A DNA stretch of 34,000 nt, taken from Candidatus Endomicrobium labiotermitis. GTDB taxonomy: Bacteria; Elusimicrobiota; Endomicrobiia; Endomicrobiales; Endomicrobiaceae. The stretch lies in NCBI GenBank assembly GCA_009778965.1, contig WRFE01000012.1, positions 1 through 34,000 on the forward strand. Reading direction: 5' to 3'. The notes under the pieces were generated by a model that saw only the letters and a program-made list of their open reading frames with translations, made no database searches and was not told where the DNA came from. The translations under genes and the position numbers were made by a program. Shown piece after piece: positions 1,035-8,390 of this stretch; the stretch's first letter is position 1; each line of letters starts with the position of its first letter.

Positions 1035-1085
1035 CCCTTTGTTGTGTTTTCATATTGTGGTGTTGGTAGTAAAATTAAAATAAAA

Positions 1086-1110
1086 AACCTCCGGCAAACT
1101 GCCGGAGGTT
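1086..1110. terminator. Bidirectional Rho-independent terminator
   Basis: A perfect 10-base stem (AACCTCCGGC 1086-1095 with GCCGGAGGTT 1101-1110) closes a five-base loop. It is followed by T-rich runs on both strands. It lies 29 bases past the stop codon of the giant minus-strand gene and is the only textbook intrinsic terminator I found in the window. Confidence 0.92.
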
Positions 1111-1138
1111 TTTCTTTTACAGATATTATAAAGTTTTT

Positions 1139-4100
1139 TTAAGCTTTTGTAAGGATTGCGGTTATATTTAAAATATCCAGCTGATCCGCGCCGCCCATTC
1201 TGTCGACATCTATAGTATCTGTTTTTATATCAGGAACAACAGGGTCAATAAATTTAAGGTCTGACGCAGCCAGAACAAGCATCATTCCTACTCTTATACC
1301 GTATAAATCTTTTTCTATATGACCGTCGAATTGAGAGAAATATTTATCAAAAAACTCGAGGAAAAACTGTTCTTTGCCTTTTATCGTAGGCCACCAAGCC
1401 CTGTTATATTTTTTGATATCTGTAATCAGCTCATTAATAATTTCAATTTCCATTTTGTTTCCGGGGTTTGGCATTAATACTAAATCATCTTTATTAATAT
1501 CAAACAAAATTCCGATTCCGTCTTCATCTATTATTCCGTCGGTGGCTGTCAGATAAGGCATTTTATCTTTATAGAGTATCATATAAGCCATAAACCTGTC
1601 GAATAAATCCTGTTTTTTGCCGGTAAGATTATCGTAATAATCTTTTTTATCTAATATATAAATTTTATCTCCGTATGCTCCTTCCAGGTATTTGTTCTTA
1701 ATATATTCCGTATATAGTCCCAGAAGGAATGATCTTGACATGGAATGCAAAGTCCTTTTAGATTCTACCACGAAATCAAAGAAATAAGGATGGTTATCCT
1801 TTATATATGTTATTCCCGATGTCCCTGACTTTCTAAGAATATCGGCTATTTTATTTGCTTCTTCTTCTGTCTCTATGACTTTTATTTTTTGCATTCTTGC
1901 AAATTTATAGGCGAAATATTTGCGCTCTACAATACCTTTGGTTTCTTTCATATATCTCATAAAACTGACCATGGAATTGATAACGTTCATATTGTAATCA
2001 AGACCTTCTCTTTCAGTATCTTTAAGAGGCTGTGAATAAACAAGATTTATCGGAAATGTAACTCTGGTTATCTCTCTGGAATTAAGGACTTTATTCATTA
2101 TGTTTAACAAGCGGTCTTCCATCATGACTGTATCCGTATGTTCTTTTAAAATAGTTTCAAGCGGCTGGTTCGAACTTTCCCATTTCTCTATTATATTTCT
2201 TATGGTGCTGTTCGGAATTTCGCCGTAATTTAAAGAGCCGTCCGGGTTTTTAGCTCTATAATAAATATTATTGATAACGTGAATCATATGCTGGATTTTT
2301 CTTTCATATTCATGCTGGTTTTTGTAAACGGATATCTCATAATGCGAGTTGAAACTGTTTAACGCGTAATCGTTATCCATAAGTTCTTCCTTACTGGATA
2401 AAATTCTTGTTATTCCAAGCGTTAAAAAAGTATGTCCGAATTTATTCCACATTTTTTCCGACACGTAAACCGACATTTCACACGCGAGATCGGGTTTTCT
2501 CGAAGTGTAGGACCGCATATCTTTTATAAATTTTTCAATGTCTTTTTCATTGCAGTCAAAAAGATCAAATTTTACGCCGGCGTAGCCTATTTCTTTTTGT
2601 TCCGTTTCGAATTTATCTAAGAAATCGTCAAAATGTTCGTCTATTCGGGTGAAAGTGTATTCAAAAAGTATTTTCTTGTCGATTTTGCGTAAATCCGCGG
2701 CTAATTTTTTTAAATTTTCTTTTACGGTAGTATCTCTGCTTAATACTTTTAAATCTAAATTATTATCCCTTATAACTACATTGACAAAGTCTACGCCGAT
2801 ATCTGTCATTATGGATATAAACTCCGATTCTTCTTTGAGACTGTTGAATATATGTTCATCCGAAGCTATTTTAACACCGACAATAGACGCTTTTTGGTCA
2901 GTGAATAGTCCTAAAAAAGATTTTCGCTTTAAGGCTTTTACTACTCTTACGACATTTGACGTATGTACAACGGAAGCCGCCACGTGGGGATATTTTAGTT
3001 CTTTAGGATTTGCTCTGTCGGCAATAGAGCTTTGCTGTAAAATGAAAGGGAAGCCCATTTCCGTGACTGTTTCTTTGTCTTCCTGTGAAGAATTTTCAGA
3101 CATTGTTACCACGGATTTATACGAATCTTCAAATACAGTATTAACTTTGGATTTTGGTATAGCCGGCGTTCCTTTAAATTCTATAATATTGTTTGAATAT
3201 TTTGTAAGAAAAGGTTTAATTTCTTTTAATACTTCCGGCAGCCATAAGCCGTCATAGTCTTGAGGAAAATCGGATACGTCTATAAAATAAACGGAATGTT
3301 TGCCGTCAATTTGCTGTTTGTATATTCTTGCCGCCTTATTTCCTGATACAAAGCAGGTTCTTACCAATGTGCTGTTATTTTCCGATATTAAATTTTTATC
3401 TCTTGTAGGTAATATCAAAGAAGCTTCAAATCCGTGCCTTCTGATGACTTTAAAATAATCTCTTAAAAAATCAATGTCATAATTTTGTTCTCTATAAACC
3501 ATAACCCAGTTTCCTTTCATATACATACGCGAAATGGGTCTTCTTAATGCGTCCGTCAAAATACTGCTGCTGTTGTAAATATCAGTAAGAACTCTTTGAA
3601 GTTCGTAAAAAATATAAGCTACAAACCCTTTTTTTATCGACGGATTCGCATTTATCAATAATTCATCGATGTTCAAATTTTCCTGCGTATATTCTTTATC
3701 GTGGTAAAAATATTTTATTGAGGCGTCTCTCCAAGGCAATTTTGTGTTGTCAAGAAAGTTATCGAAAGCTTTTCTTGCCTGGTGATATACATTTGTTAAA
3801 CTTTCAAGATACGCGTTTTCATTATGGCCTCTGTTTCCTTCAGGATAGAAAGCAAAAGTCATGCCGTCTATTTTTATAATGCTAAGCGTCTGATTATGTC
3901 CCCAGTCTCCGCCCTTAAAATTTGTATCCGTTTGCGCGTAATCTTTGTTTGCGATCTTGTCTTTATAATAACTTTGAAAAGCAAAGGTCATATATGCGGG
4001 GATGAAAAATATAACATCGACGCCGTATTTTTTTTCTTTTTCTGCTTTATAATTTTTTGCCGATTCTATAAATTTTGTAAACGGTTCATAGGCCAGTTCA

Positions 4101-7100
4101 AACTTCGCGTCTTCCGGGTGAGCGTCTCCTATGCTGCTCGGATCATAAGTCAGCTTTGCCGATTCTACCGGCCATATAAACATTGTTACGTCTCTTTCAA
4201 AGCCGGGAAGATATTTCAAATATTCATTTTCTTCTTCACTTTTTACCGGTTTTGCTAGTTCTATTTGCGATATCGGATAGCGTATTATACTCTTATCTGT
4301 ATTTATATATTCGGGCACCGGTTTCCCTTCGGAGTTTAGAGGGGTATGGGTTATTGTAATATTTTCAACGCCTACGGTATTTATAAAAAAGCTTACAAGT
4401 TCGTCAATATTATATTTAGTTTTATCAAGGTTGGTAAGGTCAAGTATAAGCCCTTCTTGTTCCTTTATTTTGTTAATATTTATTGTGGCAAACAATTTTC
4501 CGTAATCTATCGAGTAATCCTCTTTAAAAATACCGGATGCAGTCTCTTTTGATACGAAAGTATAATGGTCTTCGGGAACGTATCTGTTGTAAATGTTATC
4601 TACCGATCCTGACGCGCCGCCATCGCTCCATGAATCGCGCGCCGCGATAAATTTTTTCGGATTAATTGTATCTATGACGCAGAGATATTTATTGTCAATA
4701 TCATTAATTCTGTTAAATTTTTCATCACTGGCGTAAATGGTTATATTAGTTTTTTTGCCGGCGTAAACAAGCGCTTTTTCCGGTTCCTGACCGGTAATTT
4801 CTTTTATGTATTTGTAAACTTTAAATAGGCCGTTTTCATAAGTTATTTCAAATATTCCCTTGTCTTCAATTTGTATACCCATGCTGCCATGTTCCGCGGT
4901 ATTTATATTTTTAAATATTATTCTATTTTCTTCCGGAGTTTGAATTCCTATATATTCTGTTTGTGAGATTGACGAATTTACAAATGTGACTTGCGAGTTT
5001 GAAAGCATGGCTTCTTTACCTTCTATGCTTTGACCGTTTATAACTATTCTGGCATTTTCGTCTATATTGTTTTTTTCTTTAGGGGCTGTTTTTTTTGTCG
5101 TTTTTCCGGAGCTGATTCCTGCGCCGCCTACGCCGGTTATGCCGAGCGTTAAAAGCATGAGCGTAGTTTTGAAGATTGTTCCGAATGTTGAACTTTTTGA
5201 GGTTTTCTTTTTCGCGCCGGCATCCGCGGATGAAGTAATTACGCTGCCTTCATTAGCGCTTATTATAACTTCTCTTGTTTCTTTATTGCCTATAAGAACT
5301 TCCGCGACAAAAGTATTCTCATCCTGTTTGTGAAGTTTTGTTATTTTGGCGGTTTGGCTGATTTTTTTGTCAGAAAGTATTTTGGAAAGATAATTGTTAA
5401 GCGTATCGGTAATGTAATCATTTTTATCGCCCGTATGTTTCCATATCTCATCTAATAACGAAAAATTTAAAAAGTTAGAGAATATTACTTTTAAAGGATC
5501 CTGCCATTCAATATTAAAAATACTGCCTGTAACAAATACCTTGTAAGCGTTTCGCATTATCTCTTTTTTTATATGAAAATCTCTTTTAAATAAAATTTCA
5601 GTTTGTTTTGTGTCAAAAGAGGTTACAGCAGGCATTACTATGGCATAGTTAACGGAATTTACATTCATTAAGTCTTGCATTCCCTGCAAATGGAATCCGC
5701 CGGAAACAAGTATATCAATCTTGGCATTAGTTGTTTTAAGCATATCGGCAAGACTTAAATCAAATGAATTTTTTAAAGCTAACGATTGCCTTGCGCCGGA
5801 TGGGTTTATAGTTGTTACAGGAGCGCCTAAAGCGTTAGAAAGAAAGTAATTGTTTCTTAAAAGATTATTTTCGTAGAATTTGGACGCTATGGAGAATTGT
5901 ATTTTAATATCATTTATATAAGCGGCGGGAATATAATTTTCAAGCAATATGGAATATTTTGCAAAATTGTCTGATTCTGTCATATAGACATAATCTTCAG
6001 AAAGAAGCTTGTTGGTAAGCATATTTAACAATTTAGACGTGTAATTTTCGGTAAATATTAAGTCTTCTTCATTTTTTGTCCGCGCGTTTGCGTATAATAG
6101 TTCGCGGGATAAATAATCTTCCTGTATTAAAAGGGATCTATAATCAAAAGAATCCAATGCGGTTAAAAATAAAGTATAGTTTTTAATATTAGGGTATTTA
6201 CCGGATTTGCCGCTGTCAGATAAATAAGAACTTATTTTTTTTATATATTCCAGCGGGTGATTTTGCGCAAGCTCCGATATTTGTCTGTATTCTTTGTAAG
6301 GGATATCGTTTTTTAAATCGTCAGATATGGTTTTTAACTCCTTGCTTAATTTTTTACCGTTTATTTTATCTAAAGATTTAACGGTAGAATTATATTGCGA
6401 TATATATCTGTAATTAAAATACGGTATATCGCTTTTTTTTGCGGCTTTTTCCAAAGCCGAATAATACCGTTTCTCGCTTATTTTTCCTAGTTTATATTTT
6501 TGTTTAAGTTTGTATAAGCTTTTATTTTTAGCGCTAAATCGCGTTTGTGTTAATTTTGAAAGATGGTTTTGTATATAATTAATAAGCTCCGTGTTTTCCG
6601 CTTCTTTGTCGAACATTTGACCTAAAATTTTAAAGTTTTCAAGGTAAACGGCTTCATTTTCTATTCCTTCAAATTTTATAGAGGTTTTTGTATTATTGAT
6701 TAAAAAATATTCCGCGCCGCTGATTTTACCGTCTTTAAGCAGTCTTTTCGCAATGGCTTCGCGTAAGACTGAATCAGTTTCTTCTTTTAGCCAGTTCATA
6801 TTAATTGCGCCGTAAGCGCCTTCAAGGTATATGGAGCTTATTTCATGATTTTCATTAAGATAATCTATGATATCGGCGATATTTTTTTGGGTTGAATAAT
6901 CGGAATGTAAATCTTGGATATTTATTATGGTGTTATCGCTGCCAAAGTAAAAATCGCACATTACATTTGCCATATCCTGCGGGACAAGAGATATGCTTTT
7001 GTTATTATGAACGGACGGCGCAGCGCCGGTTGTTTGCGATGAAAATACTTCTCCGGGCAGAGAAGAAATAATAAAACAAAAAGAAACAAAAAAGGCAATA

Positions 7101-7114
7101 AATTTTTTCAACAT
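1139..7114 (-). CDS. Giant secreted multidomain protein (1991 aa), function unknown
   Basis: The protein opens with a signal peptide (basic MLKK, hydrophobic to ~20, likely cleavage ~25). Residues ~45-530 form a domain with NIQDLHSDY (D68, H70), IYLEGAYG (E99) and a late VSGGFHLQG (472-475). This motif order resembles the TraB/ChaN/EreA-like superfamily, which is my inference. Residues ~645-669 are hydrophobic and glycine-rich (a membrane helix or linker), then Lys/Thr-rich. A beta-rich stretch (~690-800) follows, then an alpha/beta region (~980-1120) holding GDWGHNQT and FYPEGNRGHNEN. Residues ~1355-1570 alternate strands and helices as in a TIM barrel. The last ~400 residues are unassigned. 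An AAGGG-like ribosome-binding site and a good promoter precede the ATG; a strong terminator follows. The reading frame is intact over 6 kb, so the gene is under selection. It stands alone, divergent from a glycosidase. I do not recognise a characterised homologue. Confidence 0.85.
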   Translation of the reverse strand: MLKKFIAFFVSFCFIISSLPGEVFSSQTTGAAPSVHNNKSISLVPQDMANVMCDFYFGSDNTIINIQDLHSDYSTQKNIADIIDYLNENHEISSIYLEGAYGAINMNWLKEETDSVLREAIAKRLLKDGKISGAEYFLINNTKTSIKFEGIENEAVYLENFKILGQMFDKEAENTELINYIQNHLSKLTQTRFSAKNKSLYKLKQKYKLGKISEKRYYSALEKAAKKSDIPYFNYRYISQYNSTVKSLDKINGKKLSKELKTISDDLKNDIPYKEYRQISELAQNHPLEYIKKISSYLSDSGKSGKYPNIKNYTLFLTALDSFDYRSLLIQEDYLSRELLYANARTKNEEDLIFTENYTSKLLNMLTNKLLSEDYVYMTESDNFAKYSILLENYIPAAYINDIKIQFSIASKFYENNLLRNNYFLSNALGAPVTTINPSGARQSLALKNSFDLSLADMLKTTNAKIDILVSGGFHLQGMQDLMNVNSVNYAIVMPAVTSFDTKQTEILFKRDFHIKKEIMRNAYKVFVTGSIFNIEWQDPLKVIFSNFLNFSLLDEIWKHTGDKNDYITDTLNNYLSKILSDKKISQTAKITKLHKQDENTFVAEVLIGNKETREVIISANEGSVITSSADAGAKKKTSKSSTFGTIFKTTLMLLTLGITGVGGAGISSGKTTKKTAPKEKNNIDENARIVINGQSIEGKEAMLSNSQVTFVNSSISQTEYIGIQTPEENRIIFKNINTAEHGSMGIQIEDKGIFEITYENGLFKVYKYIKEITGQEPEKALVYAGKKTNITIYASDEKFNRINDIDNKYLCVIDTINPKKFIAARDSWSDGGASGSVDNIYNRYVPEDHYTFVSKETASGIFKEDYSIDYGKLFATININKIKEQEGLILDLTNLDKTKYNIDELVSFFINTVGVENITITHTPLNSEGKPVPEYINTDKSIIRYPISQIELAKPVKSEEENEYLKYLPGFERDVTMFIWPVESAKLTYDPSSIGDAHPEDAKFELAYEPFTKFIESAKNYKAEKEKKYGVDVIFFIPAYMTFAFQSYYKDKIANKDYAQTDTNFKGGDWGHNQTLSIIKIDGMTFAFYPEGNRGHNENAYLESLTNVYHQARKAFDNFLDNTKLPWRDASIKYFYHDKEYTQENLNIDELLINANPSIKKGFVAYIFYELQRVLTDIYNSSSILTDALRRPISRMYMKGNWVMVYREQNYDIDFLRDYFKVIRRHGFEASLILPTRDKNLISENNSTLVRTCFVSGNKAARIYKQQIDGKHSVYFIDVSDFPQDYDGLWLPEVLKEIKPFLTKYSNNIIEFKGTPAIPKSKVNTVFEDSYKSVVTMSENSSQEDKETVTEMGFPFILQQSSIADRANPKELKYPHVAASVVHTSNVVRVVKALKRKSFLGLFTDQKASIVGVKIASDEHIFNSLKEESEFISIMTDIGVDFVNVVIRDNNLDLKVLSRDTTVKENLKKLAADLRKIDKKILFEYTFTRIDEHFDDFLDKFETEQKEIGYAGVKFDLFDCNEKDIEKFIKDMRSYTSRKPDLACEMSVYVSEKMWNKFGHTFLTLGITRILSSKEELMDNDYALNSFNSHYEISVYKNQHEYERKIQHMIHVINNIYYRAKNPDGSLNYGEIPNSTIRNIIEKWESSNQPLETILKEHTDTVMMEDRLLNIMNKVLNSREITRVTFPINLVYSQPLKDTEREGLDYNMNVINSMVSFMRYMKETKGIVERKYFAYKFARMQKIKVIETEEEANKIADILRKSGTSGITYIKDNHPYFFDFVVESKRTLHSMSRSFLLGLYTEYIKNKYLEGAYGDKIYILDKKDYYDNLTGKKQDLFDRFMAYMILYKDKMPYLTATDGIIDEDGIGILFDINKDDLVLMPNPGNKMEIEIINELITDIKKYNRAWWPTIKGKEQFFLEFFDKYFSQFDGHIEKDLYGIRVGMMLVLAASDLKFIDPVVPDIKTDTIDVDRMGGADQLDILNITAILTKA

Positions 7115-7163: not shown

Positions 7164-7191
7164 ATTATAACACTTTATTATCAAAAATCAA
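7164..7191 (-). promoter_or_regulatory. Promoter of the giant gene
   Basis: On the minus strand TTGATT (7191-7186), a 16-base spacer and TATAAT (7169-7164) are preceded by TG one base before the -10 (extended -10). The predicted start near 7157 gives a leader of about 43 bases with an AAGGG ribosome-binding site. It is back to back with the plus-strand promoter at 7225-7254. Confidence 0.7.
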
Positions 7192-8206: not shown

Positions 8207-8266
8207 AAAAGATTTACTTTTCTAACTCTTAGAATGCAGTTATTCCATGATGTATTATCCTCATTT

Positions 8267-8347
8267 GTCATTGCGAGGAAAGACATAGTCTTGACGAAGC
8301 AATCCATTTTAAAGTAACGTGGATTGCCGCGCTTCGCTCGCAATGAC
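8267..8347. repeat. Palindromic element, class A (GTCATTGCGAG...CTCGCAATGAC), 81 bp
   Basis: Perfect 11-base terminal inverted repeats enclose a second inverted pair, GCAATCCA/TGGATTGC. This is a widespread bacterial dispersed repeat type whose arms resemble CATTGCGAGG...GAAGCAATCC. One reading frame through it gives the familiar pseudo-peptide DCRASLAMT, which falsely lengthens the next gene if its first ATG is taken. It sits between the GH26-like gene and the beta-lactamase-like gene. Confidence 0.88.
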
Positions 8348-8390
8348 GACAAAGACAGACAATCCGCAAAAAAATCAAAACTCTCTTTTT

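Follow-up and report, generated by a model that had tools for sequence, protein, structure and literature searches.

Elusimicrobiota is, according to the consulted parts of PMC11573180, a phylum rich in proteins of >5,000 amino acid residues, while the giant open reading frames (ORFs) of Omnitrophota contain few annotated domains and, in the parts of PMC10066038 consulted, have a proposed role in adhesion or predation. The work of West-Roberts 2023 on giant proteins is cited in PMC12057145. The family reported here shares with the Elusimicrobiota and Omnitrophota giants its very large ORFs and paucity of annotated domains (PMC11573180, PMC10066038), whereas a shared TIKI-like front, a shared C-terminal tag and glycolytic enzymes within the bodies are undescribed in the consulted portions of PMC11573180, PMC10066038 and PMC12057145. 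The consulted portion of a 2024 comparative-genomics paper on Endomicrobia (PMC11257099) likewise contains no word on giant proteins, secretion or TraB. The tag had apparently not been noticed before; neither it nor the enzyme-bearing paralogues were visible to the initial annotation of this locus. In polymorphic toxins and carriers of the MARTX type, too, a variable stretch of several domains lies between constant ends; the giants resemble these in layout, but their cargo is mostly metabolic-type enzymes. To our knowledge, no delivery machine is known for the giants.

The window, that is the whole stretch of DNA analysed, comprises 34,000 nucleotides (contig WRFE01000012.1, positions 1 to 34,000) of the gut symbiont Candidatus Endomicrobium labiotermitis. 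Chances appear to us evenly balanced that one of its genes belongs to a large family whose giant, exported members agree at both ends, vary in between and function as Sec-exported carriers. At the sequence level, this family is typified by a common module with an invariant D/H/E/R/GGxH set, a common tag, unrelated bodies and, in many paralogues, enzymes with kept signatures. For the giants of Elusimicrobiota and Omnitrophota, which are described as poorly characterized, the shared front and tail provide a handle with which they can be listed and aligned, and their sorting studied.

The initial annotation had described an intact gene of ~6 kb at positions 1139-7114, but had not given its strand. 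The ORF is indeed present, on the minus strand, and encodes 1,991 residues from an ATG at 7114 (ATGTTGAAAAAA, with AAAAAAGGG upstream of the start) to a stop codon at 1141-1139. Residues 1-26 (7037-7114, minus strand) form a putative Sec-type signal sequence (MLKKFIAFFVSFCFIISSLPGEVFSS), assigned by inspection. The middle of its hydrophobic segment contains a family-conserved Cys-Phe pair (residues 13-14; 7073-7078, minus strand), which is not a standard lipobox; in Endomicrobiia homologues the Cys is found in 64/88 and the Phe in 73/88. The promoter and terminator ascribed to this gene exist as candidate sites on its two sides, both of them matches to consensus only: a promoter-like TTGATT-16-TATAAT upstream (7164-7191, minus strand), and a terminator-like hairpin of 15 pairs after the stop codon (1082-1114, minus strand). 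The nearest orthologue of the window protein (L062, genome G003) displays 70% identity, and the dN/dS ratio between the two genes is 0.25 overall, 0.21 in the N-terminal module (N-module) and 0.22 in the body, from which we conclude that the whole frame is under purifying selection and is not a product of chance. When synteny was compared with orthologues, the giant gene alone matched. At approximately 8256-8350 (plus strand) the window also contains an imperfect palindrome (TCATTGCGAGG...CAATCC / GGATTG...CGCAATGA), which resembles a dispersed repeat.

The N-module (residues 45-560; 5435-6982, minus strand), which is common to 13 other ORFs of the home genome, is probably a divergent member of the TIKI/TraB/ChaN/EreA superfamily, an assignment which is based upon motifs and a family match rather than upon fold searches. 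The key residues, all encoded on the minus strand, are D68-x-H70 (6905-6913), with Asp in 97/98 homologues (Glu in one) and His in 98/98; E98, located 28 residues past H70 (6821-6823; 98/98); R420-N421 (5852-5857), an RN/RD motif in which Arg is found in 98/98 and the second residue is always N or D; and GGFH at residues 472-475 (5690-5701), where both glycines and the histidine are present in 98/98 homologues and the third position is occupied by F or Y. In all, H70, Q76, E98, R420, G472, G473, H475 and P495 show no variation across the 98 homologues. The initial annotation had located D68-x-H70 and GGFH correctly; the glutamate that it reported also exists, but as E98 instead of E99. It had named a lack of conservation of D68, H70, E99 and GGFH as one ground for refutation, and this did not arise: the H, E, GG and H are found in every homologue (98/98), the D in all but one (97/98). 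In the modules of other classes (L192-L200, L248-L252), a motif such as FW-x-ERR or IWAERK precedes, right after the signal segment.

TIKI-superfamily enzymes possess a 2His/2Glu site, and in one solved enzyme 28 residues separate H3902 from E3930 (PMC6254334). The window protein exhibits a corresponding 2His/2acid layout (D68-x-H70, E98 at +28, and the distal H475) with the same spacing. This layout, together with the H-to-E distance of 28 observed in the TIKI member (PMC6254334), is also its point of likeness to the TraB/PrgY/GumN and erythromycin esterase families. With ChaN (PF04187) the N-module shares the acid-x-H, the downstream E and the G-x-GH/GGFH site, while differing in the replacement of the first E by D, in a helical insertion of ~275 residues, and in its fusion to giant bodies. 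The RN motif before GGFH resembles TraB. One homologous module (G127:C43, i.e., L248) scores above the gathering cut-off of PF04187, which Pfam describes as "Tiki superfamily" (31.2 versus 27.7 bits), and that this ORF carries the N-module was confirmed at E 3e-97; five of ten other modules match below the cut-off, at the GGFH end. The window protein itself has no match to PF04187. A direct TraB or EreA match was not obtained: Pfam searches with PF01963 (TraB/PrgY/GumN) and PF05139 (erythromycin esterase) hit neither the window protein nor the home genome. Sequence searches of Pfam, NCBIfam and PDB with the whole window protein returned nothing significant. Alignment of the N-module (whole, core-only and halves) to an eight-sequence ChaN profile using hhalign was unsupported, with scores no better than those of column-shuffled controls, and against E. 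coli YbaP hhalign aligned the GGFH site alone, without significance. The confident AlphaFold2 model of the N-module (pLDDT 88.9; pTM 0.86) opens with beta-alpha alternation, which is interrupted by a long helical insertion (residues ~154-429; 5828-6655, minus strand) and resumes around GGFH. Of the 50 matches that Foldseek listed for this model, none was a TIKI structure and none had E <= 0.001, the matches being helical only. The invariant motifs and the PF04187 matches in homologues nevertheless lead us to call the N-module a probable, divergent member of the TIKI/ChaN superfamily. The earlier reading, in which the protein is of exported type and its N-terminal domain belongs to the TIKI/TraB/ChaN/EreA group, appears to be supported.

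When the window protein was searched against 199 related genomes, all from within the phylum, only its first ~560 residues proved to be widespread. The N-module occurs in 56 of these 199 genomes, at the front of open frames of very different length, the shortest having a few hundred residues and the longest 12,444. A later profile of 19 rows located 14 copies in the 1.89-Mb home genome (107 contigs), each in a separate large ORF, some of them truncated by contig ends. If three ORFs that bear the tag but lack their 5′-ends are included, the total is ~40,500 codons, about 6% of the genome; protein statistics for the home genome were drawn from retrieved stretches of its contigs. Far fewer genomes, eight others in the family, matched the C-terminal half of the protein. 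The proposal that this protein is lineage-specific is correct for its C-terminal half only, and does not apply to the N-module, with at least 14 copies in the home genome.

The window protein terminates in ITAILTKA-COOH (residues 1984-1991; 1142-1165, minus strand), its version of a tag with the consensus [IV][RK][AS]IL[SA]AA-COOH, derived for positions -8 to -1 from 55 non-redundant giant ends. The pattern L.[ASKRG][AG]-stop is present in 42 of the 55 non-redundant giants versus 0/597 other ORFs (Fisher P 5e-55), the controls being a mechanical set taken from the same stretches as the giants, in which some non-genes may be present. Of the 13 exceptions, several end similarly (e.g., IEVAG, INAAG, IKSAA, ILKAS). 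The tag is found on giants with unrelated bodies: the window protein, L049, L051, L054, L055, L057-L059, L061 and L142-L190. Searching the home genome with a DNA pattern for the strict tag core gave 41 matches compared to 35 for a reversed-pattern control; the raw count is consequently uninformative, and what matters is the identity of the ORFs that are so ended. Within the subset of hits followed up were three further tag-bearing long ORFs (894-2,328 residues), cut at the contig edge; besides giants, the only in-frame matches there of >60 residues were ORFs of 76 and 83 residues. In the giants of other classes sampled the tag was absent or not evident. A search for tmRNA, for comparison with the ssrA tag, returned nothing above the cut-off, the listed hits being tRNA-like. 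The window protein thus combines the two ends by which we define the family, namely the N-module and a [hydrophobic]L-x-[small or basic]-A tag, in an ORF of >1,000 residues.

Between these ends the giants differ, and the body of the window protein matches no family. The linker proposed at residues 645-669 (5108-5182, minus strand) does correspond to a hydrophobic stretch, but a weak one, which remains below 1.6 on the Kyte-Doolittle scale; rumen orthologues show a stronger hydrophobicity there (YLTMILVLPLLAIMGGGG, for example). The segment from residue ~690 to 956 (4247-5047, minus strand) is mostly missing from the G003 orthologue. It is followed by a body belonging to no known family (residues 957-1991; 1142-4246, minus strand), with orthologues in Endomicrobium and Ruminimicrobiellum genomes, for which Pfam and PDB searches gave no match. 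Two motifs had been highlighted in this half and both exist; the orthologues retain most of FYPEGNRGHN, with Y161, P162, G164, R166, H168, N169 and E170 of the body alignment invariant, whereas GDWGHNQT is not conserved. The best-conserved part is a beta/alpha-repeat stretch (residues ~1410-1580; 2375-2887, minus strand), and for residues 1410-1600 dN/dS is 0.12. The AlphaFold2 model of the body, from a six-sequence alignment, is poor (pLDDT 53.5) and its weak matches were to glycogen synthase, GH84 and type I dehydroquinase; hhalign provided no confirmation of a glycogen synthase or type I dehydroquinase identity. Since beta-alpha alternation is seen in the model, a TIM-like domain in residues 1410-1600 is possible.

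Many other giants carry known enzymes of cytosolic type: across the family the cargo includes PGM, PFK, ADK, NDK, phosphatases, M48, ABC1 kinase, SF1 helicase, PGI and PPDK. In the home genome a complete PGM/PMM is found in L049 (with the TASHNP and DPDGDR signatures kept), PGM, ADK and PFK in L053 (GGDG of PFK kept), NDK and GNAT in L054 (NDK histidine kept), phosphatases in L051 and L060, an M48 protease and an ABC1 kinase in L059 (HEIEH kept), and an SF1 helicase in L058 (Walker A kept); the remaining giant bodies matched no family. Elsewhere, L068 and L092 contain PGI followed by PGM in one chain, with a UDPGP match also in L092; L103 possesses PPDK domains; and in L197, which belongs to another class, TIM is found together with a GAPDH domain. 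The occurrence of intact-looking PGI, PGM, PFK, NDK and PPDK in exported-type chains beside housekeeping copies was unexpected.

PGI was sought in 100 genomes, and a giant PGI was almost always accompanied by a standalone enzyme of ~550 residues in the same genome, the exceptions including the incomplete genome G038. A phylogenetic tree separates the housekeeping from the giant PGIs with 100/100 support, although long branches leave the inner order of the giant copies unsure. The housekeeping PGIs all lie on one side of this tree, which refutes a recent origin of the giant PGI from the pgi gene of its own genome and indicates that the giant copies are old and diverged. The standalone pgi gene often adjoins a giant gene on the same strand (G000:C46, G001:C21, G003:C3, G012:C54, G021:C2, G022:C97, G036:C18, and others).

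In the scheme that we favour, the Sec pathway would take the giant chain out of the cytoplasm; outside it, the N-module might handle a ligand in the same way for all giants, its H/E/H site serving for binding or cleavage; the C-terminal tag, displayed by full-length chains only, may serve as a common docking or sorting signal; and the body would be cargo, set on the surface or handed to the host or a neighbouring cell. Several considerations count against this carrier: enzymes that depend on ATP, and a helicase, would be out of place beyond the cell; the tag is absent or not evident in the other classes sampled; some giants have hydrophobic segments after the module; and no cargo enzyme was recognized by sequence in the window body. 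We regard it as improbable that these are instead cytoplasmic multienzymes tethered to the membrane by the signal sequence or later hydrophobic segments. Such a location would suit a cargo dependent on nucleotides and sugar phosphates, and L049, L068, L103 and L058 do have hydrophobic segments between the module and the enzymes, which could return the body to the cytoplasm. By comparison L053 (PGM, ADK, PFK) and L092 (PGI, PGM) lack any hydrophobic segment of >1.8 past the N-terminus, which fits a body on the same side as the N-module; moreover, a separate housekeeping PGI exists, and ChaN-like domains, as a matter of general knowledge, usually act outside the cytoplasm. Such segments, present in some giants and absent from others, do not decide between the two locations.

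It is also conceivable, albeit unlikely, that the giants are polyproteins, in which an N-module of the TIKI protease kind cuts the chains into working pieces and the tag is a recognition or trimming site for a protease that reads C-termini. TIKI proteins include metalloproteases, the N-module keeps the 2His/2acid layout, the bodies are strings of separate enzymes, and the tag ends in small hydrophobic residues; yet haem binding is the property of ChaN-type members, which are not necessarily proteases. That the captured enzyme copies serve as structural or binding modules of a noncatalytic, adhesin-like scaffold seems very improbable. It would suit the many bodies that match no family, and the changes in the giant PGIs, which carry ESLGK for ESNGK and, in most, TAGTDAQH for EPGTN.QH; most giant PGIs, however, keep the catalytic Arg, Glu, His and Lys positions, and their dN/dS is 0.10-0.12. 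The Sec-exported carrier may be extended, though only tentatively, to a dedicated export system of Endomicrobiia, and in other form of the phylum, for giant multi-enzyme carriers, in which a TIKI-like front and an IL-x-AA tail would flank a cargo that includes sugar-phosphate and nucleotide enzymes in active form and is brought to the surface or into a host or prey cell. The enzyme-bearing giants pose a testable question, namely what role such metabolism would have outside the cell or toward the host.

A scan of the GTDB collection recovered 80 loci by organism name, all from Endomicrobiia (Endomicrobium, Ruminimicrobiellum and relatives). More distant modules are found in other families of Elusimicrobiota (G116, G127, G135, G152, G163 and G186). 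A one-contig genome of the same genus (G002, probably E. proavitum) is without the module, and in the reduced genomes of genus g8 (G043:C18, G066:C12) the copies are full of stop codons, as if decaying.
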